IMG/VR virus record: IMGVR_UViG_3300036886_000243
Location: 1 to 64,000 of that record
Strand: one strand, 5' to 3'
Origin: a virus
Length of the DNA stretch: 64,000 nucleotides
The translations under genes and the position numbers were made by a program. Position 1 is the first letter of the stretch. The number at the start of each line of letters is the position of its first letter. The notes beneath the pieces are model-generated. The model was not told where the DNA came from and did not search any database. It was given only the letters and a program-made list of their open reading frames with translations. Shown in pieces: positions 2 to 20,432 of this stretch.

Positions 2-3000
2 GATGCATCCTTTGATTTGTATGGAAGCTATGGTTTCAAAGTTGGTTATTTCTCTAGCGCAGATTTATGTTATGGCACTAAAACCTTCACTTCACAAACT
101 GAAGTCTTTATGAGGGCTTATCTATATATTAGTCCTAATTATAAAGTAGCTGCTGCTGGAAACAGTATCAAAGTTTTAAGCTTCTTATCAACTGGTGGTG
201 GCCAGGAATTAGTTTCTTTATATTTGACTGCTAATGGTGCTACTAACATCATTAATAATTGGACCACATTTATAGATACAGTCGGCACACAAAACTTTGC
301 TACTAATTTCACAACAGGTAATTTTCACAAAATAGAATTACACTTTAGAGCTGGCACTGGTGCTGATGGTGGTGGCCAAATATGGGTAGACGATACGCTC
401 TTGGCTAGTAACTTAACTTTAAACTTAAGCGCATTAGCTTGTAACACTCTATTAGTTGGACCTAGTACTGCTGGTATAAATTCTATACAAGGTTCTTTCT
501 TGTACTTTGATGACATAAAAGTTGATAACTTCCCAGCAATTACTCCAGCAAGAATTCCCGACTATCATGATCTATATACCAAAGTATTTATCAACTCACC
601 AGAGACTAGAGGATATCAAGATTTCGGTTTAAATAAAGCTGATCCTAATATACAATTAACTATAACTGGTACATATGGTTTTTATATAACAGTAAATGGT
701 TATAGCTCTCCTGTCCTTGTCACCATTAACATAGTCGCTACCGATACTCTTAATACAATTGCATCAAAAATTAACCAGCAATTTGCTACACTAGCTTATA
801 ACGGAAGACCGTTTATATTTGCCTACGCTAGAGTTTTCTTAAGCCCTATAACAACTGGTTGGGACTTAAGGATATATAGTCAATCTAGTGGAGATTATTC
901 TACTATACTATTATGCGTATACGGCATTTGAAACTTAAACTTAGTTTTAGGTGGAACTGGATATTTAACAGCAGTTCCAGGCGTTAGCGATTGGAATATA
1001 ATAAATGATATCACATTAACTGATCATCAATTTATAGTAGCAAACGGTGTTACAACTCAGCCGCCTCCAGGATTAGATGTTGGTACGGTAGCCTATGAAT
1101 TGTATTATGCTATGTTAGCAGCTGGCACTAATTTCCCAGCAACAGCCCCACAAAACAACTTCACTATAGGGTTAAATAACTCTATAGGTTTTGATCACAG
1201 CAATCAACTCTATGTATACTCTAATTTAGCGACACAAGGCTTTCAAGCGTTGAATATGAGCGTACCTGATCCTGCTCTAAATTCTCTGCTAGCGCCATTA
1301 ACTACATATTATTTCAAATTAGTTGTAGACGGTGGACCTCTTACTGAGTATGCTATAATAACGACTACTGATACATCTTATCAGGGCGTAGTGAATTCAA
1401 TAAATAATGTACTGACTGGAATAGTCACTGTAAGCTTTAGTATAACAAACGACATCATATTCACATCTGATTCCTATGGACCTTTCTCGAGCGTATCTAC
1501 AGCTGACGGCACTACAGGTACTAGTTTATTTGGTTTTGCTTATCCTGCTGCTGGTTTTACACCTTCAGCCCTACATCTACCACCAGTCTTTGGAACTGGT
1601 ACTATAATTTCAATTAGGCCGTGTCCAATAAAAACGTTTGCAATAATAAAAGATTCAATTAAAGAAAGAGCCACATATAGTTATAATGATACTATAGTTT
1701 ATGTTACGCCCACAGCGCAATCTAGTAAAAGAGATTTTATAGATACCTATACAGCATTTTTAACTAGTACTAGTGCAAATAGATGGTCAACACAAAATAG
1801 TAGAACTATCGCCTTAGATTTAAGCGCTCATCCGAATTGGTTTGCTGGGTCGACAATAACTAAGTTATGTCCGCTTACTATTGGTCTTAATAACTACCTG
1901 TTAGTTGGTAACTCTAAAGGTCAAGTATTTTACTTTTTAGCTAATGTTACTTTGTATAACGAAGATATGATCATATCTTCTTCGACACCACCAGACCCTG
2001 CAACTTTTGTATACTTCACTAGCGCAAATTTAAGACAAGCTGGATTACCAACGCAAGGTGACCCTGAATTTATAAGCAACTTCTTTACTTATGTAGATTC
2101 TGTAAATAATAAGACTTATTTATTTATTTTAACTCAGAGCTACATATATTGGTCAGATATAACTGCTGGTCTAACGCCCAGTCAGTCTTTTAACATAGTA
2201 AATACTAGTAGTTCGTTAATAGTACCGAACGTAACTGACGTCGTATTCAAGGAAATAAGATCAGCAATAAGTTGGACTGCTACTGTTAATCCAACTACCC
2301 CATCAACAAATAATTATGTAATTTTTGTTGGTAAGTCTAACATAAGCACATGGAATCGCGCCCCTATTGTCTATGGACTGTATAATTATAATGGAGCGCA
2401 TCCTGAACAATCATTTATTTGGAATTCAGAAAGTGTATATGAGAAATCACAAATAGACGATATAAGATCTATATCTAAATTTAACAACTGGCAAGATCCA
2501 CAACAAACATATCAATTATTTATAACTAACAACGTTAACGGTCCAGAACTCTGGACTGGTAATTCTCAAAACGGTACGTTTGAGGTTGGTGGTGTAGGTG
2601 GCGACAACAGATTTGTAAGGTTTAGTTGGATAAATGCTAATCATGAAAATGGTACTGATCCTTTTGGAATAAATACTAGTTTGAGCTATTTAAGCTTTGC
2701 GACTGTTTATGATAACAAGTTATTCGTCGGCGGATTACGCTATGACATTAACACTATTGGTGGATTATATAGTTACGGGCTCAACCAGCTTCAAAATTAT
2801 TTTACAGTTGATTCAACTTTATCATCAGCCTTTGTTGATACCTCTGTAAGTAATTCTGCTTTATATGTTGTATTACATGATGGAACTACGGGCAACGCCG
2901 ATCCAGCTATTGCTAAAATAAATCAAGAGACCGATGCTGGTAGAGCTGTAATAGTAAGCGCTATAGATCTTGAAACAGTTTCTGAGTGGCCATCGCAATC

Positions 3001-6000
3001 TGCTTTTCAAGTAGTATTGCTTGGATTCACAGTCGGTGGTATAGTTTATGACGGCACTTACAATGTAGTATTTAATGGAAATTTCTCTGACATAAATGCG
3101 ATTGTGACGGCAATGAATGGTGGTGATGTAGCAGCTGCAGGATTTAAAACAGCTATAAATACAGCTACTAGTACTGTAAGAGATTTGACGCCAGCAATAG
3201 AAGCTGTATTATTGACTGATATAGTATTGTCTGGTTCTGTCTATATAAACAAATTTAAAATTGCAATTCAAAGTAAGACTTCTGATCCAGCCGATCACAG
3301 CGGGTTCACTAGTCCAACACAACCAACTCAATCTAATTGTACTATAACCATTAATAACCCAACCACTGGAACTACTATAGTTGGCGTAGGCCCCAACACT
3401 CTAGAAATATTGGCTGGCACTACAGCACACGCTAATTTACAATTAATAGATTGGAATAACGCGAAACTTAGACAAGTAAAAAGAGTCTCGACTGATTCAT
3501 TCGAATTAAATTTTGGAACGCTAAGCTATATTAACATTACTCCATATATACCCGGCGGATATTCTATACTAACTGGTAGCTTTAGATTGAAGGCAGATCC
3601 AAACGACGAGATTGGTTATTCACAAGGCGACGGCCTAATTCTAACTAGCGGCACTACGCTAACATCGTTATCCCCAATATATAATGGAATTTACACCTTC
3701 AAAGTTGAGTTTGATGCAACAAACATTGCGGGAACTGCCCAGGTTACTAGAATTGTATGCGCAGCTGACTCTAACGGATCTTTGAGTGGAACCTACTTCT
3801 TAATTAACACGCCAACTAAATATTATTATGTTTGGTACAATGTTACTGGTTTAGCCAGCCCATCTATAGACCCACAAATATTTGGATGTTCACCAATAAT
3901 GGTAACAATCCCAAGAGGTACCAGTGCAGCAACTGTAGGTACTACGACTGCTTCTGCCCTAACTACAACCTCAGACTTTATAGCCTCTTCAACTTTAGGC
4001 ATAATCACAGCAACAAACACATCTAATGGTCGCCTAGTACCAGCATCTGATGGAGATACTGGTTTTGGGATTACTACTACAAACATGGGATCTGGTGGAA
4101 ATGTTATCAACCAAATTGTAGTAAATTCGGCCAGTGTCACAACAATAAGTAGTTTAATAATTTCTATAAATTCACAAATATCTGGTGGTGTAGCAACTTT
4201 AAGCCCTATTGGTAATACAACTGACTATTGCGACATAGTAATAACTTCTCTCACTATTGGTAATAATTCTAGTGTAAGAATTTTCGCAGATACTTTGGGC
4301 AACTATCTATTTACTAAATATGGATTGGATATAATACCTAATCAGCCAGTTCAAGGAAGTACGGGTCTTAATACGGCTGGTTATCAGACACTAGGATTTA
4401 CTTGGACTAATTCTGACTATTTCTTAGAATATAGTTATCCCAACAGCCCAGGTACTGGCCAAGTAAGAATCTATATTCCGAATGGTTCTACTAGATTGAA
4501 CACTGGTTCTACTATTTATTTAGATTTTTGGGCTTGGACTACACTAACTAAGATTGCGGCCAAAGTCGGTAACCCGCCACAGAATACTATTCCAGTAGCT
4601 GGTCAGTGGACTTATAAGCTAGAATCTAAAGAAATTGTTTTGGCAGTAGCCCCAAGTACAGTAGCACCACAAGACATGATTTTTGTAGATCTAGAAGTTT
4701 ACAAAGTTTTAGCAGAATTAGATTTAGGTAATACGCCGCCAGTTGATCAGACTGCTATATCTGATACTTTCTATGGTACTCAACCATTCAATCTGACTAA
4801 CGGGGATGTAGCCTTAAACAGACCATTAGCAAGAGTAGAAGCTTTAGATTATGGTATTTTCTTGTTGAGTACTAATACTTCCAACTTAGACAACACTGGT
4901 TCTAATTCACCTATAGTAATAAACTATTCTTTCTTCTTGCCTAGAATAGATCTATTAATGGCTCAAAAAATGCCGGATCAATATGGTAATAGAGTTATAG
5001 AAGTGAAGGGATTATCAGATTCAATAATGCCATGGGCCGAAGTACCACAAACAACTTTAGACTCTACTTCGATGTTATACGGAGCCTTTGTTAGCTCTCA
5101 AGATTATAATAACAATAACATAATAAGTCTGCCATGGTATAGTAACGCTGATGTAGATAAAGACAAAGTTTATTTCACTGGTGAATCTGTACATTATTTT
5201 AGCTCCGATCAAAACTTTATATCAGCTAGTGGTCTTAAGTATATATCTAGAAATATAAACTTAGATAAATTCATTCTTAATAATGATTACGAATTAGTAG
5301 TAGTCACAGATCCAGTCGGAATCAATAGTTTCCGAAATAGAGACGCCAAATATAATAATCTAGATCAGTCTAAATGTATATTCGTTAATAATGATACTGG
5401 TAGTGATGCTTCTGATGGTCAAACTAAAAATTCGCCCGTTAAAACATTACAGAACGCAATAAATCTAGCCACCAACACTAGACCTTACGTCATAATAACA
5501 AGACCAGAGAATTTAAACCAAACTGTTTATACTTCAATTACTATTAATAAGGGTTTTGAGATTTTCATAATAGCTGAATATATTGCTGCTATCCCCCAAA
5601 TAACAATCAGCAGTCCTTGTTATTTACAGGGATTAAACGTTGGAGGCACGGCGGCGCCAGGCTTGGGTATATTAATATTGAATGGCCATGATTTAACAGC
5701 TAAATATTGCAATATTCAAACAATAACTACAGTAGGATATCCATCTGGATCTGCAACGTACAGTAGTATTAATGTAGCTGTTTACAATTCTATTATAGAA
5801 GTAAATGGTGTTGTAGTACTAAATAATCCTATAATTCCATTGAATATAACTGGAGCTACTAATGTATTATTTCAGAATGTATTTATTAGAAGCAGCGCAC
5901 AGATACTTAACTTCAGTCCGGCGACTTATAGTATAACAGCGACTAATACTTTTACATTTAACAACATAACTAACGGTCAAGGTCATGCTGGTACTACTAT

Positions 6001-9000
6001 AACAACTGCTGGTGGAGTATCTCAGAGCATTAATATAACAATTAATAATTCTATATTACCAGCTAACGACGCAGCTGGAATCACAAACTTTGCAACTAAC
6101 GCTGTGGTGACTATTAATAGATCGTTAACTTATAGATTGGTCAATGTTGATTCGGGATCTATTGTAACTGATAAATCTCAAATTGTAAGCGTGGGCGATA
6201 TTGGAATAAATCCTATTACCGGTTCATCAAACTCAATAGCGAGAGGTTTCGCAACTGATTCTTTCGCCATAAACTATATTGATAGACACATAGACGCAGG
6301 AGCTTTCTTAGAAAACAGAATAGAATTAGGAATAGCTAATCAGGCAGCTCCTTCTCTAACCGAATCGTTTATGCACCTACATGAACAAAGATTACAATAC
6401 AGATATAGTATGTTGGGAGATAAGTTTAGCTTCTGGATCCGATTTCAATTGATGACAGACTATACCGTTCCATTTGTATTATTCGATACACGTTATGATG
6501 GCGACTTTAATGTTGATTCAGGATTGTGGAATTTAAACGGTAATGAATTTATACAGATTGTGTATGACAACAACACCTATGCTTTACCATATCTTGATGA
6601 TTCTAAATATTGTTTCAAGGTCGTATTTAGTAATAACTTTGCAACTTACGTAGCAGTCATTGGCCCATATTTTACAGCCTCAGACAATCAGGAATTTGGC
6701 GGACCGAGTGGTCCCAATGGATTCTGGCACGAACTAGGTGTCGTCTATTCTTTAAAGGATATCTATGACAATAAGTATGATTCAATTACAGGCACAGGCG
6801 TTTCTAGCTTAACTCCTCAAACAGTAGGTAGTCCTATTTCTAAGAGTGTAGTAGTTGATAGTAATAGAAAACAAGGTGTCGTTATTACTTTATGGGATAG
6901 TAAAGTAGACAAGATCTACGCACCTTCGTTACCGTTATTTGAAGATCTGAATGGTAATCCAGTTGCTAACAGTAACTGGTACCCCGGCGTATCTATAAGT
7001 AATTTCTTTAATATCGGTGGTGGTTGGTCAGCGGAGTGGGATGGAAGTATATGGTCCACGTGGATACCTTCTAACGGACATCTTTCAATTGATAGATTCT
7101 TAGTTAGTCACGAGGTAATTCCAGCCAATGTATTAGTCAGCATCGGACCAAGAGAAGTTATAATCTTAGATGAAAACGATTGGCGAACGGGTAGATGGGA
7201 TGACAAAGATACAGACATAATAATACATTGTCAAAATCCAAATCCATTCTCAGAAAACGGACTTTATCCAGAACCAGGATATCAAGTTTCATTCCGCCCA
7301 TATGAAGGGTTTGAAGGCAACGCAATAGCTATAGAAGAAGCAAGTCCAAACCTTATACAATATGGTCGCTTCCAGATGGGTCAATGGTTTGATAGAACTG
7401 CTGCAAGTCAATGGGCTACAGGACCTGTAACTGTTTATGAAGAAGTTCAAGCAACTAGTCCTGGTGTAGCTATAGCAGACCTTAGAGGTGGAAATTTAGT
7501 AGTCGATTTCTTGAACACTTCTACATTAGTTATAGCACATTCAACTACAGTATTAATTGGACCTACTTTACCCTTCTCGCCTCCAACAGTTTCAATGGAT
7601 ATTACCGGAAATAGTATAGTAGTGGGCTACATTTATTCTGATAGTTTCTTCTATTTTAATACAGTCAACACTAATACTTATTTATTGGGAACAACAGCGC
7701 CGGGATATCAACTTGCTAATACAGCTGGTGCTACCTATATATCAGTTACAGCTGGTGCTACTAGTTCACAAGCAATATTTACTTACGAACATACTGGTTT
7801 AGGTTACATAGTAATAATAGATGTAACTACTAATACTGTAATCGCTGGCCCAACTGCTTTTAGTATCGCTCCAATAACTTACAGTAACGCTAACACTTCT
7901 GTAGACAAAGATGGTAACCCAACTTACGTTATAGTTTATGTAGATGCAGCCACTAAGTTCTTGAACTATGTAATGTATAACTCAACCCTAACAGCCACTG
8001 TTTACCCAATAGCCACTTTAGTTCAAACAGAAAATCCAACTCATCTAGAATGCAATAGCTTTGGGGCTTTTGGAAATACAGCTATAAAGTGGATTAATAA
8101 TACCGACATGGTGGTTGGTGGAAATTGTGAAAGTATTACAGCTCCATTCTTGTTTGGACAAGTTCCAGCAGCAACTGTAAATGCAACGTGGGCCCAAAAC
8201 GCTTTAGTACCGCATACCGGTGGTTTTTCATTCGAGCTTACATTAACTCCCGCAGCAGCTGACGCCCAAGCTTTTTTGGGACCATCCTCTTCGGTAGACA
8301 TGAGCGGTTTTATTGCAGGGCACACATATAAATTTGCAGCATGGATTTACATTCCAGCCCAAGCTGTAGTAAATATTGCAAACTTCAGTCTCACATTTGG
8401 TTACTACAATGGATCTTGGACGTATGTTCCAGCTACACCCACGGCAATATTCAATGCATGGCAATATATTACTGCCTCAATTACGATACCTGGTGGTGCT
8501 ACGGGTGCTCAAGTCTTTGTTCAAATAACTTCGGCTGAAGCTATTGGTACGCATTGTTATTTTGATGATATTCAAATAATAGATGCAGCAAATCCGACTA
8601 CTCTAAAAACTGCATTGATTAACGACACTGGATTATTAGCAGTTTCACCATTTCCAGTATATGCTAACGCAGACACTGGATTACAAGCGGATGATGTATT
8701 GCTAACATCAAATAACAACATGTTATTTGCTGTAAAAGATTTTACTACACAACACATAAACTTTGCTATATACAATAGTGCACTAGACTTAGTACCCAAT
8801 TCGTCTAATATAAGACCTTACAATATGAGCGACGTTGACGGAAAAATATTATTATCTAATGTGTATAACTCTAACGACTATGTAATTATTACAGACAACA
8901 TTGCTGGTAACGCTAATATCATAACATTAGCTACAGATGTACCTACATTATGGTATAAAGATTTTACAGGAGTATTTCAGACTTTCATTGCGGATGTCGA

Positions 9001-12000
9001 ATCAACTAATAGCTTATTTGGTGAAGCGGCCTTTATCGATTTTGCCCACGAGCCAATGGCTGTAGAATCAGATGTATTTGTAGCTGACGCTGAAACAGGT
9101 AACATATCGCAATGGACGACGAACGTACAATCTGGTGGTAGTATAACTGCTGAAAATGCTATAATAATTCATGGTAATTATAGCTACCAATTTCAATACA
9201 ATGGATCAGGCAATGCAGTATATCTAAGTAAGAATGCTGGCCTTAACCCTGGTGGCAATCCAACGTTGTTTGGTAGATTCTACATTCAGTTGGATAGTTT
9301 TTTCACTTTAACGGGCGTCAACCCACAACTTGTTATAGCTCAATATGGGCCATCAGGTAATCCACTAGTTCTAAGTATAGTCTATAATTCAGTTGACAGA
9401 AAATATAAGTTATCAGGTTCTGCTGGCGCTTTCGGTAGTTTCCTTACTGCCAATAGTGTCATCGATTATAGTACTTCACACTATATTGATATAGAGTGGG
9501 TAAATAATGTTTCAATTGGCGGTTGGTCGGTTTGGGTAGATGGTACATTAGTTGCTAGCGATTTAGCTCAAGACACATCTTCGCTTGGCAATCCTTCAAT
9601 TTTCATAATAGGAAACACAGTTGCTCAAGCTACACCACCAGCTACATTAGCTAAGATCTATTTTGACGACGCCAGATCAGGCTACACTGGACCAATAGGC
9701 GCTTATACAGCAGGATTGGGACAAGGTCAGATATGGCAGCCAGTAACTGTAGTTAACTCAGGACAATATTTCATATCTGGATTTTTTGCAGTTACCTCAG
9801 GCAATTTTATACTTACATTAGAAAGTACTAGCACAGGCGCTGGTGGGGCACTAAGTAGCCCAATTCAATATGAGTTTAGTAATTTAAAAATCGAGGGAGA
9901 TATAGCTAACGCTATACACCTGACTAAAGGAACAGACACGGTAAATAATTTTACTTTGAACCAAGTAAATACTAATAGAATTGCTAGATTTACAATTGGA
10001 TTCACTGTCCCGAATGCCGGCTATATAAACGTTAGACTACAAACTCCCTATATCTCTGGCTCAGAAATAGACACTCTATTTGTGGACAATCTTAAATTAG
10101 AAAATAACGCTCATGCTACGAGTATAATAACTTCGGGCACAGGTAATGCTGTTTATGATATTCACTTGAAAGAGAAGGGTAATGCCTACTTTAGAATAAC
10201 CCCAGAGTTTTTCACTACTACAGCAACTAACCATACTATATTTTCTGGATACACCACTAACAGTTTGAATGTCGTATATACAACGCATGAATTATATTTT
10301 AGCGGAGCAACTAAACAATTTATTTTCTATATTCAAAATCTTGACTTGACAACAGTTCAAGTAGCGTCAGCAATATACGGAGATGCTATATCAATACCAG
10401 CCTTCACAGACTTAAATTCTCCGCATACAATTGTAGTGAACTGGGATTTATTCCACGGCTATTTGGAAATGTATATTGACACTATTTATTATTCTACTAC
10501 ATTCCCAGTTCAATCTAGAATAGCAACATTTAAGGAAGCTGATTTTACAGTTATTGGTAATGTATTTGATCTAAGCCGACATGCTGGTTGTCTATTTGAT
10601 TTAATACGAGTTGGTGAAACTCCACTATCTACAGACGAAGTTCTGGATCTGACTTTAAAGGCGAATCCTTTCGTTCATCCATCTGATACATACATAGGCT
10701 CAGTAGGAGTAACTGGTCTATCTTTCTTTGGATTAACCAGCGGTGATTTATATGATCAAACTATATATTCAAGACAAGTTGGTAACGGTTGGGATCTAGT
10801 TATTGATACTGGTAACAATTTTCTTAACAACTTAGTAGTTCAAGTTAACGGATCTCCGTTAGCAACTTTCACAGCCCAGGGCGTCGTAATAAATGGTAGC
10901 CTAGAGGTTACAAACTTAATAGCACAAACTACGACGACACTATCAACTACTGGAGATAACATAACTCTAAGATTTGGATTTACAGGAATCCCACAACCAT
11001 CTAACAATGGTTATTTCCAAGTAGATAGAGGTAATTTAGCTGACTCTCAAATTATTTGGCTAGAGGCTATAAAGGCTTGGGCGTTTAACGATGGAACTAA
11101 TACCAATATCGCTATTGATGGAACCTCTATAGGAACTTGGAACGCTGCCGCTCCTAATTGGAGCATAGATGTAAACGCAAGTGGCAATTTAACGTTCTTG
11201 AGTGGAACTACCACTAACTCTAACACCACGGCCAGAACTGGTGGCGTAGAAATGTTAAGAGTGAACTCAGCTGAAGTTGCATTTAACAACTCTAATCTCC
11301 AAACTATAAACTTTAGAATGTCTGGCGGTTCCAGAGATCATATGTTCTTCCTAAATACCAATTTAGGAAACTTAACTGTGGGTAGAAGCGCTGGATTGAT
11401 TCCAACTTTTACACCAAGTTACACACCTATAATGGCTGTAGATACTTTATTATCTGTGGTAAACGTCAACTCCAATAACTATGGATCTATAATGTTTGCT
11501 GAAAATGCAGGAACAGTTGGTGGTCATATAGGTTGGGGTAATTTTACAAGCTCGCCAACTTATTGGGAAATTGTAACTAGAACTGGTCAACTTAGAGTTT
11601 GGGGTAGTGACCTTGTAATGGGTAACACCGACGGATCTCGAGGAATAACATCTACAGGCTTAGGCCTAAGCTTTTTCGAGGATCCTATAAATGCTAGATT
11701 GGCATTTACTTCAAACGCACAAACACAAACTACCGGAGTTTCTTTAGCTGGCGTATATTGCTGGGGTAGTTTTACAGCCTACAAGGTATTTAACAATGTT
11801 TGGAACGATTACGCAGAAGCTTTCGATTTTGATAAACAAATAGAAAAAGATCCTGAACCAGGATTTGTTTACGAGCAAACGGAAAAAGGTCTGATCAAGT
11901 CTACTAAGCGAGCTAGTAAAGCTGCAATAGGTATTTACTCAGACACTTATGGACAACTTATGGGATCAGAAGGAAAACTATACGATGCTGAACATTTAGA

Positions 12001-12211
12001 CGGATCCAAGATCCCAATAGGCTTGATGGGAAAAGTTAAAGTATGGATCAAAGAAAAACTTGAAATCGGCGACTCGCTAGTTTCTGCACCTAATGGTTTT
12101 GCCACTAAAGCTAATGAATATGAAAGAACTTTCAGTGACTTAATACTTGGTAAAGTTCTCGAGACCTCTAATGATAATTCTGAAAAAAGAGTTTGGGTCT
12201 TAGTGAAATAA
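2..12211 (+). CDS. Giant beta-rich fibre/adhesin-like virion protein (5' end outside window, one in-frame TGA)
   Basis: The frame is open from the left edge, so the true start lies upstream. There are 4,069 codons before the TAA, interrupted only by a TGA at codon 310. The protein is rich in Asn, Thr, Ser and Gly and poor in Cys. Modules I can discern are a LamG-like lectin fold at about nt 17-540; a right-handed beta-helix entered by FVNNDTGSDASDG at about nt 5380-6320; a propeller-like stretch at about 7490-8110; a CBM4/9-like jelly roll at about 8120-8580; and further LamG-like folds at about 9060-9690 and 10130-10650. The last 420 nt hold a DYAE motif and a compact GDSL/VLE-ending domain resembling the autoproteolytic chaperone (peptidase G2-like) ends of phage fibres. 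It is probably a long tail fibre or capsid appendage that binds surface glycans. The role is inferred from fold and size; the receptor is unknown. Confidence 0.85.
929..931 (+). other. In-frame TGA inside the giant fibre gene
   Basis: Codons before (GTA TAC GGC ATT) and after (AAC TTA AAC TTA) stay in one frame. No further stop occurs until 12211, and the 168 nt after the TGA contain no start with a Shine-Dalgarno. Other genes here end with TGA, so the codon has not been reassigned throughout. It could be a nonsense mutation, a readthrough site or a consensus error. Confidence 0.8.
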
Positions 12212-12250: not shown

Positions 12251-15064
12251 ATGACAAACTTTACGCAACTTTTAAAAAAAGTAATGCTATTGAGTGATCT
12301 CAATCAAGCTCAAACTGCTATAAATAACGAGAGAGCTAGGCGTACCGCTATAAATGGCAGTACTATACCGGCATGGTCGTTTTTACCAGTTAGTCGATAT
12401 GATTACGCTTCTGGTAATTTAATTACCAACGGCAATGGCGAAACAGTTTCACCTGCTCCTGCTATTTTTGGGAAGACTGGTGCAGCAGTAAATTCAACTT
12501 TTACTCAAAGCTCAACACACGTTCACTTAGGCTCTAACGCCTTCAACTTAGCTTACACGTCTGGTCTTACTCAATTTTATTGGGACTTTGCATCGCCTGA
12601 AAGTTTCACCAACTTGGGAGGCTTAGTACCAAATACTACTTATACACTTACTGCTTGGGTTTATGTGCCTTCGTCAATAATTTCATTATCAAACGTTACG
12701 CTTGCCATTTATTATAGCACAGATGGTGTTAGTTGGACAAACTTTGCCCAATCTAATTCACCAACTGCTTACAATGATTATCAGCGCTTAACTTTAATTT
12801 TTACTTTGCCACCAAGCACTACTGGAACTATTTTAAAACTACTCGTTAATGAAGTCGGGGCCACTAAACAACTTTGGGTTGATGATATATATCTTCGATC
12901 TAATACTCCAGCTGTAGTAGCTGATTTAAGAAATTCTATAAACAACATGATAAACTATAGCTGGACACAATCGGCTGTTGAATATGGTTATGAAACAGCC
13001 CTAGGTCAAAGCGAAATACTTTGGAAAATTAACAGACTAGAAGAGAACGCTGAAACTTGTAATTCTTCTTGTATTGGATTCTGTCAAGGTTGTTCAACAC
13101 AATGTGGAACTGCATGTGCTACTGGTTGTGGTGCGGCTTGTGCTACTGGTTGCGGTGGTAGTTGTGCAATTGGCTGTGGAACTGCTTGTGCAAGCGGTTG
13201 CGGGGCAGCATGTCAAATTACTTGTGGTGGAACTTGTAATGAAAGCTGTAGCAGCTGTACTGGTAGTTGTGCTACTGGTTGTTCAGGTACTTGTTTCCAT
13301 GGCGCTACAGGTGCTGGTTTATATACTTCGTGTAATTGTGGTACTAGCTGTAGTAGTACTTGTGGCTCTTCCTGTTCTGGATGTTATACGACATGTACGT
13401 CGAGTTGCGGAAGTGCTTGCGTAGGTGGTTGTGGTACCTCTTGTCAAAGTGGTTGTGGTACTGGATGCGCTGGAGGTTGTGGAACTGCATGTACTAATGG
13501 TTGTGGAACTGCATGTCAGAGCGGCTGTGGAACTTCTTGTCAAGCTGGCTGCGGAACCTGCGCATTACAATGTTATAATGCATGTACAGGAACTTGTGGT
13601 GGATTATGCGTTGTTACTTGTGGATCTAACTGCACAGCTATCGCATCATATGCAACTAGTTTAAGCCGATTTATTACATCGCCTTATTATTCTATTCTTC
13701 CAGGTACTATAGTAGAATCACTCTATGATGATCAACAAGTTGTGGGAACTACCGATGTTACTGCTTCGGTAGTTTTTGGATCTTACGTTGTAGTGGGATC
13801 TTCTAGTGGACGTATTGCTTCGTTTGATACGGTCCATAATTATTGGAAGTGGTATACTGGTTATTCAAACGGAACTTCAAATGGGCCGTTTAATGTTGGA
13901 ACAGCTGTAAACAATCAAGCCGTAATAAAGTTACTAGTCTTAGGCACTAAACTTATAGTAGTAACACAGAATTATGTTGCTTCTTATGACGGCACTAATT
14001 GGAAAAATTATGACGGGACTGGCACCGGAACTGGACCATTCGATAATAACACAGCAACGGGCGGATATGGTAACTCAGATGCTGTCGTATGGACTACTAA
14101 ATTAATCATCATTGGACTTACTACAACATTTAATGGTACAAATTTCCTTGCACATAATAGATTATCTTCTTTTGACGGCACGAATTGGAAATATTATAAT
14201 GGAACTGGGACTGGAACTGGACCATTTGCAATAGATGTAAAATCAGATAACACAATTGGAAATCTTTGGGGAGTTTCAGGTTGGTCTTTTAGTTACAACG
14301 TCAAATTAACAACCTACAACACTTATCTTATTGTGTTTGGCGGATCGTTAATTACAGAAGGTCCAGGTACACCATTTACCCACTCTAACGCTGGCTGTGC
14401 TTCATATGATGGGAACTGGAAATATTTTGATGGAACTGGAACTGGAACTGGGCCATTCTTTAATAGCGCTCTAGCCAACGGCGGCCCATTGCCACACGTT
14501 AATGGCACGCTCACGACTATAGCCACAATTGGTGCTTGCGGAAGTTATAACGGGCAACTGATAGTGACTGATTTTGCTTATGGTAATACTAGAATAGCTT
14601 CCTGGGATGGTAGCCATTGGAAAAATGCTGATGGTACAGGGACAGGGACTGGTGTCTTCTATACTGGTACAGCTATTTTAGGAGCTAGCGCTCATATATT
14701 AAAATTATTAGATTACGCACCCGGCGCAACGCATTTCTTAGTAATAACCTCTGATATAGCTAGTGCTTTAGCTTCTTGGAATGGAGCTAGCTGGAGAAAC
14801 TCTGATGGTACAGGTACTGGCACAGGACCATCAAACTCTGGCACTGCAGTAAATTCTCAAATAATTCAAACACTATCTACACTAATATACAGTGGTAAAA
14901 ATTATTTGGTACTTGGAGCTAGTGGTGGAAATATTGCATCTTATGACGGGACTACATGGCTAAATTACAATACTGTGCCTACAATAATTACAACTGGAAC
15001 CTATTTTACAAATAATCCACCAGCTGAGTATTTTGGAGTGACTGGTTATTATACGTCAATTTAA
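12251..15064 (+). CDS. Fibre protein with CXXX-repeat cysteine domain and seven-motif beta-propeller
   Basis: This 937-residue protein has four parts. Residues 1-60 form a helical start. Residues about 55-225 form a CBM4/9-like jelly roll (NLITNGNGE start, LWVDDIYLRS end). Residues 270-461 hold 48 cysteines, almost all spaced CX3C with Gly, Thr, Ser and Ala between them. Residues about 515-915 carry seven copies of a motif like SYDGTNWKNYDGTGTGTGPF, the count expected for a seven-bladed propeller. A GGAAGC-type ribosome site precedes the ATG. It lies directly after the giant fibre and four positions upstream of a SPASM-only protein, with a radical SAM/SPASM enzyme between, so the cysteine ladder is the obvious candidate substrate for that enzyme. 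I infer an exported-with-the-virion receptor-binding or baseplate protein. The chemistry on the cysteines (disulfide, thioether or metal) is not visible from sequence. Confidence 0.85.
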   Translation: MTNFTQLLKKVMLLSDLNQAQTAINNERARRTAINGSTIPAWSFLPVSRYDYASGNLITNGNGETVSPAPAIFGKTGAAVNSTFTQSSTHVHLGSNAFNLAYTSGLTQFYWDFASPESFTNLGGLVPNTTYTLTAWVYVPSSIISLSNVTLAIYYSTDGVSWTNFAQSNSPTAYNDYQRLTLIFTLPPSTTGTILKLLVNEVGATKQLWVDDIYLRSNTPAVVADLRNSINNMINYSWTQSAVEYGYETALGQSEILWKINRLEENAETCNSSCIGFCQGCSTQCGTACATGCGAACATGCGGSCAIGCGTACASGCGAACQITCGGTCNESCSSCTGSCATGCSGTCFHGATGAGLYTSCNCGTSCSSTCGSSCSGCYTTCTSSCGSACVGGCGTSCQSGCGTGCAGGCGTACTNGCGTACQSGCGTSCQAGCGTCALQCYNACTGTCGGLCVVTCGSNCTAIASYATSLSRFITSPYYSILPGTIVESLYDDQQVVGTTDVTASVVFGSYVVVGSSSGRIASFDTVHNYWKWYTGYSNGTSNGPFNVGTAVNNQAVIKLLVLGTKLIVVTQNYVASYDGTNWKNYDGTGTGTGPFDNNTATGGYGNSDAVVWTTKLIIIGLTTTFNGTNFLAHNRLSSFDGTNWKYYNGTGTGTGPFAIDVKSDNTIGNLWGVSGWSFSYNVKLTTYNTYLIVFGGSLITEGPGTPFTHSNAGCASYDGNWKYFDGTGTGTGPFFNSALANGGPLPHVNGTLTTIATIGACGSYNGQLIVTDFAYGNTRIASWDGSHWKNADGTGTGTGVFYTGTAILGASAHILKLLDYAPGATHFLVITSDIASALASWNGASWRNSDGTGTGTGPSNSGTAVNSQIIQTLSTLIYSGKNYLVLGASGGNIASYDGTTWLNYNTVPTIITTGTYFTNNPPAEYFGVTGYYTSI
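13058..13633 (+). repeat. CXXX repeats: 48 cysteines at period four
   Basis: Cysteine codons recur almost every 12 nt from residue 270 to 461. The period slips to CX2C at about four places and to CXC once, and a single 12-residue spacer (residues about 355-366) splits the region into a block of 21 and a block of 27 cysteines. The intervening triplets are dominated by GTA, GTS, ATG, QSG and GAA. Confidence 0.95.
13812..14975 (+). repeat. Seven beta-propeller blade motifs
   Basis: Seven imperfect copies of [S][YFW]DG-x-x-W-K-x-x-DGTGTGTGPF recur about every 50-65 residues. The first is degenerate (FDTVHNYWKWYTG) and the last is truncated after W-L-N-Y. The regular spacing supports a closed seven-bladed propeller. 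Confidence 0.8.
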
Positions 15065-15076
15065 GGAGAATTTAAA

Positions 15077-16168
15077 ATGCCTGTTTTCATAAATCAAAAT
15101 TATACCGGGATAACATTCGCAGATTATCCAGTTTCAAATGTTGGGGTTTCAGCTTTTAATCTACAACACGACTGGTTTACTCAACAAGATTTATCAATCT
15201 ATACTGGAGCGGGTCATACTGGAACACAGCTTCTATTAGGAGTACACTATATTTTGGTAACACAAGCCACTGACTTGTCTGCTAACTGTACAGCTGTTCG
15301 AGGTATAACTATTAACGCTTACTATCAGATTCAAATAATAAATGTTACTTATCAAACAGGCAATCTATTTATTAGCGGTCGATATGTAGCTGACTCGCTT
15401 GACGCCTCAAAAGTTGAAGTATCGCCTACTATAGCAATATCAGGTAACTACACAATAATTCAAGACAAAATAAGATCTGTCCACGCTACTACTGGTGGTG
15501 GTACTGTAACTTTGACTTTACCTACAGGAACTATCAATGATTATCGAAGAGTGCGTTATGTCAAAGCAGACGCTGGCATTGGCACTGCCGTATTGGCTGT
15601 TGATATTAGTGATACAATAGGTCCTAGTGGAACAAGTTTCACATTATATTCTCAGGGTGATTATATTGATGTAGAGTATGAAGCACTAACTCATATTTGG
15701 TGGCCAATTGGTAATCGTGTATTACCAACAGCAGACATTTATTTGGGCAAACCGATTTATTTTACAACAGCCAACACAAGTAGATCGTTAGTTTCGACAA
15801 CACCTCCAATCGTAGCAAACTTTTCCACAGCAATACAAGCCACTGGTTTGGTTGGTATTCCTGCTAGCGCTAAAGCTATTATAGTAACTATTGATATAGA
15901 AGGGACAGTAGATAACACACCTTGTGAATTGTTGTTAGGCTTCTCAGATAACAATACAACTACCCCTTCTATTTCAACTAGCCATGCAAAGGCTCGTCTA
16001 TATGCTTCTGTAGGTGGGACTTTTAGTGGAACATGGAAAAATGATCCTGTCCAAGTTATCATACCATTAAATTCACTTGGGCAATTCTATACTTATACAA
16101 TAACTTTGAGTAACATCACAGGATCTACATATAACGTAATTGCTAACGGATATTACACCGGTCTTTAA
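15077..16168 (+). CDS. Predicted virion/tail-associated protein
   Basis: This 363-residue beta-rich protein begins 12 nt after the propeller fibre, behind a strong AAGGAG site. The first ~100 residues (ADYPVSNV, DWF, LLLGVHYILV) resemble short N-terminal modules of fibre or tailspike proteins. Residues about 115-215 resemble the generic trimeric-fibre stretch in which a constant-signal background is described (TTGGGTVTLTLPTGT, RRVRYVKAD, YSQGDYIDVEY). The C-terminal ~140 residues form a Thr/Ser-rich jelly-roll-like region. It has only two cysteines, so it is not a CXXX substrate. Its place between the cysteine-rich fibre and the radical SAM gene suggests one transcription unit. The function is inferred from context and composition only. 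Confidence 0.7.
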   Translation: MPVFINQNYTGITFADYPVSNVGVSAFNLQHDWFTQQDLSIYTGAGHTGTQLLLGVHYILVTQATDLSANCTAVRGITINAYYQIQIINVTYQTGNLFISGRYVADSLDASKVEVSPTIAISGNYTIIQDKIRSVHATTGGGTVTLTLPTGTINDYRRVRYVKADAGIGTAVLAVDISDTIGPSGTSFTLYSQGDYIDVEYEALTHIWWPIGNRVLPTADIYLGKPIYFTTANTSRSLVSTTPPIVANFSTAIQATGLVGIPASAKAIIVTIDIEGTVDNTPCELLLGFSDNNTTTPSISTSHAKARLYASVGGTFSGTWKNDPVQVIIPLNSLGQFYTYTITLSNITGSTYNVIANGYYTGL

Positions 16169-16182
16169 AGAAAGGTCATTAA

Positions 16183-17409
16183 GTGATAAGTGAAAAGCTA
16201 GATTCTCAAATAGCCAAAGGCGCTCCGCAATACAAAGCGGGAGAAGCCAAAGATATAACTTTCTGTGTCACACAAGCTTGTAACTTAAGATGTCGCTACT
16301 GCTATATTGTAGGAGCTGATAATCATAAGAGTCTTACTAAAGATCAAGCCAAGAAAAACATAGATTTTATTTTTGATAATCCCGAACTCTTTTATGAGAA
16401 CTCTGTTATTTGGAATTTTATAGGCGGAGAGCCTCTCTTAGAAATTGAGCTGATTGACTACATGTGCGACTATTTAAAAATAAGAATGTATGAAAAACGA
16501 TCAGATGATTGGTTAAGCGATCACATGTTTTGTTTTTCAACTAATGGAACATTGTATCATAAGCCGGAAGTTCGAAAATTCATAAATAAGAACAAGGATC
16601 ATCTCTCAATTGGTTTTTCAATAGACGGCGTAAAAGAACTTCATGATAAATACAGAGTTTATCAAGATGGTAGAGGTAGCTTTGAAGATGTTTTAAAAAA
16701 TGTACCTTTATATGTAGCTGATTTTCAACATCACCCAACTACTAAAGCTACTTTATCACATGACTCTTTACCTTATATTTTTGAGTCAATCAAATTTCTT
16801 TCGACTTTAGGTTTAGACATTTACATGAATACCGTCTTTGAAGATATTTGGCAAGATGGTGATGATGATATATACTATGACCAGCTTTTACAAGCAGCTG
16901 ATTGGCTTATTGAAACAGGAAAGTGGCGTACACAGGTTGTGAGTTTGTTTGACTCAGCATTAATTGGACCACGCAATAATAATAACAAAAATTGGTGTGG
17001 TTCTGGTAAGATGTTGCACATAGACATAAACGGTAAACTTTTTCCATGTACTCGACTCGCTCCATATTCTATGACTTATAGAAAAGAAGGATTTTCTTTT
17101 GGAGATATAGAGCGGGGATATGACCAAAATAAACTAGATGCTTTTCTCAATTTGACTAAGCCTGATCAGAGCGATATGAGTTGTTTAAGTTGCGACATAG
17201 ATGATGGATGTGCTTGGTGTACAGGCTGGAACTATGATAGATACGGCTCAATATTCAAAAGAGCCACCTTCATATGTAAAATGCATAAGGCCAGAATGAA
17301 AGCCAATAGATACTACTTTAATAGACTAGAAAGCTTGATAAAAAGTGAAAGTTTTGAAAACAGTCTAAAAGAGAATGCTCCCATCTGGGAAGCCTTAGCA
17401 AAGGAATAA
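16183..17409 (+). CDS. Radical SAM/SPASM enzyme, likely CXXX-repeat maturase
   Basis: This 408-residue protein starts at a GTG preceded by AAAGAAAGG. The radical SAM cluster motif is C33-x3-C37-x2-C40 (ACNLRCRYCY), followed by GGEP at 81-84 and the SIDG strand at about 146-149. The C-terminal SPASM domain shows seven cysteines: C272, C289, C334, C337, C343, C346 and C365, with the CX2CX5CX2C core. Radical SAM/SPASM enzymes of this layout install thioether or C-C crosslinks in peptides. It sits 14 nt after a virion gene and two genes from a 48-cysteine CX3C protein, and it is followed by a SPASM-like partner and a W-rich small protein, matching the gene set I recall for CXXX-repeat target systems. 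No NrdG, QueE or MoaA-specific feature is present. Assignment to the superfamily is firm; the substrate is inferred. Confidence 0.9.
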   Translation: MISEKLDSQIAKGAPQYKAGEAKDITFCVTQACNLRCRYCYIVGADNHKSLTKDQAKKNIDFIFDNPELFYENSVIWNFIGGEPLLEIELIDYMCDYLKIRMYEKRSDDWLSDHMFCFSTNGTLYHKPEVRKFINKNKDHLSIGFSIDGVKELHDKYRVYQDGRGSFEDVLKNVPLYVADFQHHPTTKATLSHDSLPYIFESIKFLSTLGLDIYMNTVFEDIWQDGDDDIYYDQLLQAADWLIETGKWRTQVVSLFDSALIGPRNNNNKNWCGSGKMLHIDINGKLFPCTRLAPYSMTYRKEGFSFGDIERGYDQNKLDAFLNLTKPDQSDMSCLSCDIDDGCAWCTGWNYDRYGSIFKRATFICKMHKARMKANRYYFNRLESLIKSESFENSLKENAPIWEALAKE

Positions 17410-17410
17410 T

Positions 17411-18115
17411 ATGGTTCTTTATTATCTAAGTGGTAAAATTCATAGCGACTGTCATTATGAAGACTTAGAGCTTGATGATATTGACATAGCCTTAGCCACA
17501 AAATTAGCCGACGAGAAACAAATATATTTGCAAGAATTTAGTGCATCGGAGTTTTCAGAGGACGGTTTAGATTTTCCAATTAATGAAAGTACTTGCAATA
17601 AAAGAATTTTAGCACCTGACATGAACATCTATTATTGTCCTGGATTTGTAGAATTGAAAGAACCTATTTGCTCTCTGAGAGAGTTTAATGAAGAAGATTT
17701 CGATAAAAAGCTTGAGGACTTCTATTTCAAAAAACTTTATATGTGTACAAGTCCCAACGTAGAAGACGTGAGAAGATTTTGTCCGGTGAAAACTAAATGT
17801 GATAAAAAAATGTGCTATTATCTAAATCACAAACTGACTGGTGATAATAGATTTCCTTTTAGCGATTTCTGCATAGTTAAGGAAAACAGGTACACTAAAA
17901 AAATGGACACGAATAATATAGATATTTTACCAATACTCTTAAATTGTTTAATAAAACAAAATGAGGCTATTCACTCTTTGGGAACTGCTCATCCAAATCC
18001 AGTAGTCAAAAATAGACTGCTCAATTTAGTTGAAGAAGTCAATGAAAATATCTCGACTGTTATTGACAGAATGGAACAAGCTGTAAAGCAAGATGGAGAA
18101 GAGGATGTCCCTTGA
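17411..18115 (+). CDS. SPASM-only partner of the radical SAM enzyme (candidate CXXX-repeat maturase component)
   Basis: This 234-residue protein begins 1 nt after the radical SAM stop. It lacks the CX3CX2C cluster motif but its cysteines (C62, C76, C124, C130, C135, C154) line up with the SPASM half of the neighbour: NIYYCPG matches KLFPCTR, and RFCPVKTKCDKKMC-(18)-C matches the CX2CX5CX2C-(18)-C core. It would therefore bind auxiliary Fe-S clusters and perhaps guide the substrate, without generating a radical itself. The last ~70 residues are helical (LNCLIKQNEAIHSLG). NCBI-type names such as CXXX repeat peptide maturase exist for a companion protein in such systems, but I cannot verify that this one belongs there. 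The alignment was made by eye. Confidence 0.7.
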   Translation: MVLYYLSGKIHSDCHYEDLELDDIDIALATKLADEKQIYLQEFSASEFSEDGLDFPINESTCNKRILAPDMNIYYCPGFVELKEPICSLREFNEEDFDKKLEDFYFKKLYMCTSPNVEDVRRFCPVKTKCDKKMCYYLNHKLTGDNRFPFSDFCIVKENRYTKKMDTNNIDILPILLNCLIKQNEAIHSLGTAHPNPVVKNRLLNLVEEVNENISTVIDRMEQAVKQDGEEDVP

Positions 18116-18293
18116 AAAAGGAATATATCACGGCAAAGAGAAACGCAAGCCCTATTACGACTCGCGCAGATTTGATTGGTCTTGTAAGCAGCATGGTGGA
18201 TGTGCCTGGTGCTATAGCAATCGTAAAGGGAAAGATTTAACTCGACTTCGAGAATGGACTCGAGCACAAATAGAAGAAATAGAAAGGAGCTAA
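18105..18293 (+). CDS. Small cysteine protein with CX5CAWC motif
   Basis: This 62-residue protein overlaps the preceding gene by 11 nt. GGAG six bases before the second ATG favours this start over the one at 18093. The central SCKQHGGCAWCYSNR resembles a small zinc-binding motif common in phage hypothetical proteins (C-x4-6-C-x2-C followed by N-R). It also shares CAWC with the SPASM core of the radical SAM enzyme two genes upstream. The rest is a charged helix. It may be an accessory of the maturation operon or an unrelated zinc protein carried in it. Confidence 0.6.
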   Translation: MSLEKGIYHGKEKRKPYYDSRRFDWSCKQHGGCAWCYSNRKGKDLTRLREWTRAQIEEIERS

Positions 18294-18294
18294 G

Positions 18295-18576
18295 ATGCGA
18301 AAAATAGTTGGTCATGTCACTCAAGCGGAGAAAGAAGAAATTCAAAATATCTTCAATCGAAAACGAGGTCTAGAAGAGTTATTCAATTCTCTCGTATCAA
18401 CTAAGGCTGACGTCAAAAATAATCCAACTTATGATAGGCTGCTAAAAGATTATACTGACACTACTACTCAGTTTCACGATTGGTGGAGCATGACATCTCA
18501 GAGATATCTTTGGGAAGGCATAGACAGTAAATCTTGGTTGATTGATTTTAATACTAACGAAATTTACTTAGAGTAG
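18295..18576 (+). CDS. Small W-rich protein resembling CXXX-repeat modification system protein
   Basis: This 93-residue protein lies 1 nt after the previous gene behind GAAAGGAG. It reads MRKIVGHVTQAEKEEIQ, then RKRGLEELFNSL, and ends with a WW-x7-YLWEG-x4-SWLIDF-x5-I-x-L pattern. From memory this resembles the ~90-residue family named CXXX repeat peptide modification system protein, which accompanies radical SAM maturases whose targets carry CXXX repeats. The agreement of context (48 CXXX repeats, radical SAM/SPASM, SPASM-only partner) makes the match more credible, but it was not tested by a search. It is the last gene before the terminator at 18590. Confidence 0.65.
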   Translation: MRKIVGHVTQAEKEEIQNIFNRKRGLEELFNSLVSTKADVKNNPTYDRLLKDYTDTTTQFHDWWSMTSQRYLWEGIDSKSWLIDFNTNEIYLE

Positions 18577-18589
18577 AGATACTCTCCTT

Positions 18590-18619
18590 AGCCGGTACTC
18601 TTTTGGTACCGGCTTTTTG
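18590..18619 (+). terminator. Rho-independent terminator closing the CXXX operon
   Basis: A perfect 9-bp stem AGCCGGTAC / GTACCGGCT with a 7-nt loop is followed by TTTTT. It lies 13 nt after the stop of the 93-residue gene and directly before a promoter-like CAAGATAAT. Confidence 0.9.
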
Positions 18620-18910: not shown

Positions 18911-20091
18911 TCGGGTAGTTTGTGGAAGTGGGCAATCACTTCGGAACAAGATTCGCCGCTCAGTTTAAGTGAAGGCTCCTGTTCAAGCGATTCTTCAAAG
19001 TTTATCAGAGCTTCATCACTCAAAAAATCCCACGGCTCAATCAACCCTTTTATTTCTTCTTCAGAAAGAGTAGGCATAAAAATAGTAGATTCAAAACGCT
19101 TGGCCCGAACTACTTCTTGTTCTTCTTCTAACTCATCAGCAATAGACTTACGAAGAATTCCTATCAACCAGCTATTAGCCCAATTAAAATCAGGCTTCTT
19201 GGGTAGTTTTGTAGTCTTGTAGGCCTCATCAGCTGCTTTCTCGTATTTGTCATATAAGGCCATCAACTCATTCAAGTCTAGTTTAGCCTCTCGAACAGCA
19301 AGAATATCTTCTCTGGCTTGACCAGAGATAGGATAGCGTAATTCACCAGTAGCGAGAAGATCTACAGCCTCAGCGAGAATACGAATCAGGTGATAGCCGA
19401 ATTTCACATCATAGCCAAGGGTCTCAAAAGTCTTTGTGTGTACTCTCCAGCCATATGTGTCATATTCGGTCTTGAGGTGTTCATAAATCATTTTGATACT
19501 CATGCCAAGGTGAAAAGACTCGCAGTTCGCTCGCATGTTCTTGTAATACTTCAACATGCTGTTAAGCTGGTTGGCGTCAGTTTCGTTTATAGCAATATCG
19601 TCTCTATCTCTTTCTTCAGGACTGAAGGAGTCGACTATCCAGTCTAGGCCTTTAGCCAGGCTGGTGAATCTCTCACTCTTTACGGTGAGTTTCTTCTTTT
19701 GAGAATAAGCGTAGCCTTTGAATGTGTGATAGATTTTTTGAGAGATGATTTTGTCTCTGTTCGCCACAAGACTTTGCCATTCTGGTGAGGTCATCAAGAT
19801 GTTTTCTGGCGTAGCGAAGAAAAACTCTACAATGTTAGGGTTGTTTTCCAAAGCTAAGTGAAGATATTTGGGTAGGGCGTAAACCTTATCGTCTATATCT
19901 TCTGAGGTGTTTCTTGTTCCTGCTGCGGAACTCTTAGTCGAGTTATCTACTTCTTCTACATGCTTGAGACCAAGAATATACTCGCTCTTGGGAATAAACA
20001 CACCACCAAAGTCCTCATCCGACTCTGGATGATTCAGACCATAGAGATGGGACCCCGTGCGCAGTTTGAAAATCAATCGTCCTTGTTCCAT
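18907..20091 (-). CDS. RlaP-like nucleotidyltransferase (DNA polymerase beta fold)
   Basis: This 394-residue protein is on the minus strand, one of only three such genes in the window. The N-terminus carries the polymerase-beta nucleotidyltransferase signature: GSHLYG at 13-18, then SDEDFGGVF at 24-32 with the metal-binding D-x-D pair. A helical C-terminal domain follows, with YYKNMR and HLIRILAEA stretches. This matches the predicted nucleotidyltransferases of the RlaP/YcgL superfamily, which are common in large phages and have been linked by genome context to RNA ligases and RNA repair. The substrate is unknown. It is divergent from the gene at 20148 across a 56-nt gap and convergent with the gene at 18635. 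No lesion is seen. Confidence 0.85.
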   Translation of the reverse strand: MEQGRLIFKLRTGSHLYGLNHPESDEDFGGVFIPKSEYILGLKHVEEVDNSTKSSAAGTRNTSEDIDDKVYALPKYLHLALENNPNIVEFFFATPENILMTSPEWQSLVANRDKIISQKIYHTFKGYAYSQKKKLTVKSERFTSLAKGLDWIVDSFSPEERDRDDIAINETDANQLNSMLKYYKNMRANCESFHLGMSIKMIYEHLKTEYDTYGWRVHTKTFETLGYDVKFGYHLIRILAEAVDLLATGELRYPISGQAREDILAVREAKLDLNELMALYDKYEKAADEAYKTTKLPKKPDFNWANSWLIGILRKSIADELEEEQEVVRAKRFESTIFMPTLSEEEIKGLIEPWDFLSDEALINFEESLEQEPSLKLSGESCSEVIAHFHKLPD

Positions 20092-20133
20092 ACGTGTGTT
20101 TCCTATATTAGATTACTATCGAAGCTAAATATG

Positions 20134-20142
20134 CAAGATAAT
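20134..20142 (+). promoter_or_regulatory. CAAGATAAT promoter-like site
   Basis: GATAAT ends 5 nt before the ATG at 20148, inside the short divergent gap with the minus-strand nucleotidyltransferase. There is no Shine-Dalgarno before that ATG. Confidence 0.5.
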
Positions 20143-20147
20143 TTCTA

Positions 20148-20432
20148 ATGGAAATAGTAACTAGATTTATGGACGTCAAACCCGGAATGTATTTTTCAAG
20201 TGAAAAATGGGGTGCTGGCCGTCGGGCACTTGTACTTAAAAAAAGTGCTGAGAAAATCACAATGTTGATGTTATCCAAAGATTCAGCTGAAGTTTGGGTT
20301 TCATCTAATGAATGGCGATCGTCAGAATGGAAAGAAACATGGATGGGACTTGAGAAGCCAGCCCTGCTTAGTTTTTCTCAACGCAGAAATATATTTAGGG
20401 AAATATTCAAGAAAGAATTGAGGTACGCCTAA
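20148..20432 (+). CDS. Small protein of unknown function
   Basis: The 94 residues contain a short beta-rich start (FMDVKPGMYFSS, RRALVLKKS, KITMLMLS), a W-rich middle (EVWVSSNEWRSSEWKETW) and a basic C-terminal helix (FSQRRNIFREIFKKEL). The pattern suggests a small barrel domain with a charged tail, possibly a nucleic-acid binder, but no family is recognised. It ends in a TAATG overlap with the zinc-ribbon gene that follows. Confidence 0.7.
   Translation: MEIVTRFMDVKPGMYFSSEKWGAGRRALVLKKSAEKITMLMLSKDSAEVWVSSNEWRSSEWKETWMGLEKPALLSFSQRRNIFREIFKKELRYA

Follow-up and report, generated by a model that had tools for sequence, protein, structure and literature searches.

Among radical SAM/SPASM enzymes, those with cysteine-rich targets include PapB and the other ranthipeptide maturases (NF047865) and the SCIFF maturase (TIGR03974), and both families form thioethers. 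PapB makes Cys-to-Asp/Glu thioethers in the Cx3D/E motifs of small peptides, with a mass change of -2 Da (PMC9413430). A related cellular system is represented by the families TIGR04115, TIGR04116, TIGR04119 and TIGR04114, for instance in Bacteroidales, and has a substrate with Cys at every fourth position (CXXX) encoded near the enzyme and its companion. These cellular substrates have 84-416 residues, mostly carry Tat-type RR signals and are sometimes encoded beside tatA/tatC. We found no published description of CXXX systems in phages, in a search that took in only a minority of the subscription journals and preprints.

The DNA analysed here (the window) is a 64,000-nucleotide part of a 91,508-base virus record from a T4-like myovirus. 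The phage encodes a T4-like portal protein and a gp23-type capsid protein, which place it among the tailed phages of the T4-like kind; the portal protein (L007 6235-8607, G000) has an intein-splicing domain. A first-pass annotation had proposed that a fibre of this phage is the substrate of a CXXX maturation system. This interpretation is supported by our analysis, in which all three observations named as able to refute it were looked for and none came out against it; the fibre would be modified, probably as thioethers, and would belong to the virion. The reading frames on which it was based are open and in the order given in Table 1, and a terminator-like hairpin follows the last of them. The cassette shares its enzyme and companion families with the cellular systems but differs from them in its large, signal-less fibre protein, its place in a tail operon and its very divergent TIGR04119 relative; there are no tat genes in it, unlike in some cellular CXXX loci. 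The 363-residue protein encoded in the same operon had no match in Pfam or NCBIfam, nor any among annotated phages.

Table 1. Features of the window cassette and of the records compared with it.
Record	Feature	Coordinates	Strand	Remarks
Window	3703-aa giant tail-fibre-type protein	1100..12211	+	CBM_4_9 module; upstream of 937-aa gene
Window	937-aa CXXX fibre protein, proposed substrate	12251..15064	+	open ORF
Window	N-terminal region, residues 12-105	12284..12565	+	weak match to phage E..RR partner domain
Window	Carbohydrate-binding-type module (CBM_4_9 / F5_8 type C)	12416..12895	+	common to 937-aa and 3703-aa proteins
Window	CXXX tract, 48 Cys in 195 residues	13058..13642	+	residues 270-464 of 937-aa protein
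Window	C-terminal repeat region of 937-aa protein	13634..15061	+	about six repeats of the form YDGTxWKxxDGTGTGTGPF
Window	363-aa protein, same operon	15077..16168	+	virion-type by eye
Window	Radical SAM/SPASM maturase, TIGR04115	16183..17409	+	GTG start; HMM score
Window	234-aa SPASM-only protein, putative divergent TIGR04119 relative	17411..18115	+	local HMM, BLAST
Window	66-aa CX5CAWC protein	18093..18293	+	probably generic small phage protein
Window	93-aa companion, TIGR04116	18295..18576	+	HMM score over cut-off
Window	Intrinsic-terminator-like hairpin, 10 pairs, closes operon	18590..18614	+	3' of 93-aa gene
SPN3US (L207)	Tandem CXXX ORFs	3070-3462, 3473-3877		
CP220 (L358)	Cys-rich protein CPT_0032	19899-20270		123 aa, 27 Cys, CxxC-type spacing

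The period of four noted for the cysteines of the 937-residue protein is borne out by shuffling: the tract contains 41 C-x3-C pairs, against a mean of 11.4 and a maximum of 23 in 20,000 shuffles of the same residues. Its Cys codons are TGT (39) and TGC (9), and its Cys content is exceptional in the window, where other long reading frames have about 0-4% Cys. Residues 56-215 of the protein are homologous to residues 2336-2493 of the 3703-residue fibre (29%, E 4e-14), and the CBM_4_9 match of the 937-residue protein (E 8.5e-5, 23.4 bits) falls slightly below the cut-off of 25.9. The C-terminal end of the 3703-residue protein, which also shows a weak Peptidase_G2 match, is related (E 3e-11) to a tail protein of the gut phage MT835573, whose gene lies directly upstream of the CXXX gene of that phage. 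C-terminal to the tract, about six DGTGTGTGPF-type repeats look propeller-like by eye, and Pfam gave no match in this region. Taken together, the shared module, the kinship with the MT835573 tail protein and the repeats give the protein, as read from its sequence, the look of a tail fibre or an adhesin built around a central CXXX tract, and we infer that it is part of the virion. Neither of the CXXX-target models TIGR04114 and TIGR04117 matched it at E<=1, and its N-terminus (MTNFTQLLKKVMLLSDLNQ) lacks a Tat-type RR signal. In CXXX tracts generally, acidic residues are rare and the fillers are Gly, Ser, Thr and Ala, so the acceptor must differ from that of PapB; in the window tract, with mainly the same fillers, there is no Cx3D/E motif, and the residue at +4 is Cys instead of an acidic acceptor.

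The radical SAM enzyme encoded downstream matches the full model of TIGR04115, the radical SAM peptide maturase family with CXXX-repeat targets, at 430.1 bits (cut-off 350). Its next-best families score far below; PapB and the SCIFF maturase rank high among them, PapB being the closest characterised family by score. The nearest solved structure is 5wgg, the SCIFF maturase CteB. The 93-residue protein, which had been likened to a companion family of about 90 residues, is indeed a member of TIGR04116, annotated as a CXXX repeat modification system protein (79.5 bits, cut-off 50). The other two proteins assigned to the cassette fared less well. The SPASM-only protein had no NCBIfam match at E<=1, but its residues 66-157 weakly matched a locally built HMM of the TIGR04119 type (E 3.7e-5), a CXXX repeat peptide maturase family with which it also aligned by BLAST (E 1e-4); it keeps the LAPD..YxCPxF and CD..C..LNxKxT elements of that profile and can weakly be assigned as a divergent relative. 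The CX5CAWC protein is similar to a small protein of unrelated phages, such as Aeromonas phage AhSzw-1, and was rejected as a probable outsider for this reason. In 38 other loci a gene for a protein of about 100 residues lies directly upstream of the enzyme, and it is a remote homologue of TIGR04116 by HMM-HMM comparison (probability 95.7%, E 1e-8). Its structure model (pLDDT 96) has a beta-alpha-alpha-beta-beta order, with no significant match in the PDB.

In a quick tree, built without bootstrap, the enzymes formed one big phage clade (74 rows, SH-aLRT 100) and a cellular clade of CXXX maturases (25 rows, SH-aLRT 98), and the window enzyme, which might have fallen in an unrelated SPASM clade, was sister to the latter (SH-aLRT 94). 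From this position the window phage has a cell-type cassette, TIGR04116 and the TIGR04119 relative included, and probably stands apart from the main lineage of phages. Two features of other enzymes in the collection were also observed. Radical SAM enzymes of six loci (L022, L042, L047, L086, L337 and L338) were matched in two pieces with about 100-330 residues between them, which in L022 and L042 resemble homing-endonuclease or intein sequence by eye. Several in-frame stops of a single type interrupt the enzyme genes of L052 (TGA) and of L032, L038-L041 and L316 (TAG), suggesting reassigned stop codons.

We surveyed viral loci by profile scans of IMG/VR, since the window enzyme, used as a lone query against viral contigs, gave no hits; with the gut phage MT835573, this gave 96 loci with a strong enzyme match, which include near-duplicates (80 distinct enzymes) and contigs some of which could include host sequence. 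All were picked by the enzyme alone except L160, which came from a scan for the CXXX pattern in DNA. With thresholds for calling a CXXX reading frame that we set ourselves, such a frame lies within 3.5 kb of the enzyme in 93 of the 96, in agreement with the expectation that related phages would carry both, and in 68 of the 69 loci that are flanked on each side by 3 kb or more. Farther than 3.5 kb from the enzyme, the same viral loci contain 6 CXXX frames in 841 kb. The one well-flanked locus without such a frame, L016, has a Cys-rich tract whose spacing is slightly irregular. Most of what the pattern scan itself returned was tandemly repeated DNA read in the wrong frame. Seven of its records were searched for the enzyme, and the three that carry it (L126, L143 and L160) are the ones whose CXXX tracts are convincing. 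A tblastn search with the CXXX protein of phage locus L008 found nothing, perhaps due to low-complexity filtering. Other radical SAM families in viral contigs adjoin Cys-rich proteins of different spacing (L056, L059, L066, L068, L069 and L087; CNCNYSCT, for example, in L087). Two records were rejected as phages: a hit on the Anaerococcus plasmid pAPRE01 is a cellular bacteriocin island, and MT837480.1 (L002), deposited as a bacteriophage, has the look of a piece of bacterial DNA, with genes resembling tatA/tatC and a complete cellular CXXX cassette.

Cellular loci show the same association, with a CXXX frame near the enzyme in 77 of 80. Their products differ from those of phages: 89 of 99 cellular CXXX proteins have a Tat-like RR within the first 30 residues, while an export signal-like sequence was found in none of 81 phage CXXX proteins, which are mostly longer than the cellular ones and often exceed 200 residues. 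The genes upstream of the phage cassettes belong mostly to baseplate, tail-fibre, collar and tail families, and the neighbour clusters that recur include no conspicuous transporter. The lack of signals fits a release with the virion at lysis.

Most phage CXXX proteins contain a second domain, here called E..RR after its motif, on one side of the tract or the other. Three of its positions are nearly invariant and, within the loci searched, it accompanies Cys-rich tracts alone. This domain may serve as a recognition site for the enzyme or the companion, or as a part for virion attachment. An AlphaFold model of moderate confidence (pLDDT 75) had no match in the PDB. In the window fibre one profile matched this domain (E 3.4e-5); the match is weak because a second profile did not recover it at E<=0.001. 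The tract is also joined to domains of known kinds. A C-terminal tract matching phrog_6085 is attached to a tail-fibre protein in L050 (phrog_2631, E 3e-32), an N-terminal one to a Hoc-like head decoration protein in L077 (E 2e-89), and others to tail proteins (L160, L075), a GDSL lipase (L011) and an RCC1 propeller (L307). The radical SAM enzymes of L050, L075 and L077 are more distant than the main viral set, and thus the combination probably arose more than once.

These architectures bear on an alternative in which the CXXX protein is a RiPP precursor, a bacteriocin or signal carried as cargo, with E..RR as its leader peptide and an incidental location among tail genes. The cellular homologues, small, exported through Tat-type signals and RiPP-like, and in one case placed in the bacteriocin island of pAPRE01, lend it some plausibility, and E..RR, nearly invariant and confined to proteins with Cys-rich tracts, could act in recognition much as a leader does, which would suit a RiPP equally. 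Against it, E..RR can lie on either side of the tract, and the phage proteins lack both signals and a conspicuous transporter, are often long and are in some cases fused to tail-fibre, Hoc-like, lipase or propeller domains, so that we consider a RiPP unlikely.

It is equally doubtful that the CXXX domain binds metal (Zn, Fe or Cu) or acts in redox on the virion while the enzyme makes some other modification. Between diverged relatives, 91-100% of the tract cysteines are conserved, against 27-77% identity at the other tract positions, and the number of repeats varies; alignments of this kind show selection acting on the tract cysteines. Such dense and strictly conserved cysteines would suit a metal site, and we found no paper describing the chemistry of TIGR04115. 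The nearest characterised families, PapB and the SCIFF maturase, nevertheless form thioethers, and cysteines at a strict period of four with Gly/Ser/Thr fillers look like an array of crosslink sites.

CXXX genes are also present in cultured jumbo phages. SPN3US (Salmonella), CR5 (Cronobacter), Asesino, Huxley, phiEaH2, Wellington and SPLA5c, several of them Erwinia phages, have two tandem CXXX frames, most with a purine-rich ribosome-binding-like site, and in these seven phages the pair is flanked by a virion structural gene on one side and two radical SAM genes on the other. Both SPN3US frames, on the minus strand of NC_027402.1 at about 144220-143828 and 143817-143413, are full-length matches to phrog_6085, a family without assigned function, and 72 phage records match one of them. 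In the SPN3US record a gene annotated in a different frame, SPN3US_0166, overlaps one of the two, and the second is unannotated; the CXXX genes of several records of Seoulvirus, Erskinevirus, Machinavirus, Wellingtonvirus and Derbicusvirus are likewise unannotated or in the wrong frame (L207, L351, L353-L357). As in the window, the Seoulvirus-type radical SAM genes (SPN3US_0163/0164, phrog_1802) lie beside CXXX frames and virion structural genes, but there are two of them, the CXXX proteins are small (about 130 residues) and the enzyme is distant, with 125.6 bits to TIGR04115 in SPN3US, far below the cut-off. In a mass-spectrometry study that reports 86 virion proteins for SPN3US, the neighbours of these frames, gps 168-170, are virion proteins and judged candidates for the baseplate or tail fibre (PMC5694885).

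Like the window phage, the Campylobacter phages CP220/CPt10 and IBB_35 are T4-like and carry radical SAM genes, which have been read as metabolic (PMC2853527, PMC3322345). In CP220, unlike in the window, no CXXX protein lies near the radical SAM gene examined; a Cys-rich protein about 7 kb from that gene was rejected as a CXXX protein on account of its CxxC spacing. As an explanation of the window enzyme, an auxiliary metabolic or host-takeover gene in a chance neighbourhood, for which these published readings speak, is disfavoured and very improbable, given a CXXX protein near the enzyme in 93 of 96 viral loci and its membership of a peptide-maturase family.

We therefore favour crosslinking of a virion tail protein, on the strength of the gene content, the family memberships, the co-occurrence, the place in a tail operon, the fusions to virion domains in other phages, the selection on Cys and the lack of export signals: with a probability of roughly three in four, the enzyme crosslinks the CXXX tract, probably as thioethers, where the modification, its chemistry and the virion location are all what we infer. 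The phage would make a tail fibre or adhesin of 937 residues with Cys at every fourth residue of its central domain. Ahead of virion assembly or in its course, in what is presumably an anaerobic host, the radical SAM/SPASM enzyme would join the sulphurs of the cysteines to carbon atoms of residues close by, most probably as ranthipeptide-type thioethers; the TIGR04116 companion would assist it, as would the SPASM-only protein. Repeated thioethers would turn a flexible tract rich in Gly, Ser, Thr and Cys into a rigid stalk or tip resistant to proteases and redox changes, and the crosslinked fibre would exit the cell with the virion at lysis and not through secretion.

The survey suggests that in many phages parts of the tail fibres are locked chemically by the phage itself. 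More broadly, and with somewhat less assurance, radical-SAM crosslinking of virion proteins is likely to be a widespread, previously unrecognised class of phage modification, in which many lineages, cultured jumbo phages included, have independently acquired a portable CXXX domain, with its maturase, on tail fibres, tail proteins and head decoration proteins. As SPN3US and its like carry CXXX genes, the idea is testable now. The portable domain and enzyme could also serve for making rigid protein rods. If the reading is true, phrog_6085 would gain a function, as would the phage radical SAM genes so far taken to be metabolic, and it would become clear why some virion components may be invisible to routine proteomics, their genes being unannotated and their peptides crosslinked. 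So far this enzyme family is known to act on small peptides; its use on a structural protein would be new, and would give phages, probably in anaerobic habitats, a new way to build and stabilise their tail fibres.
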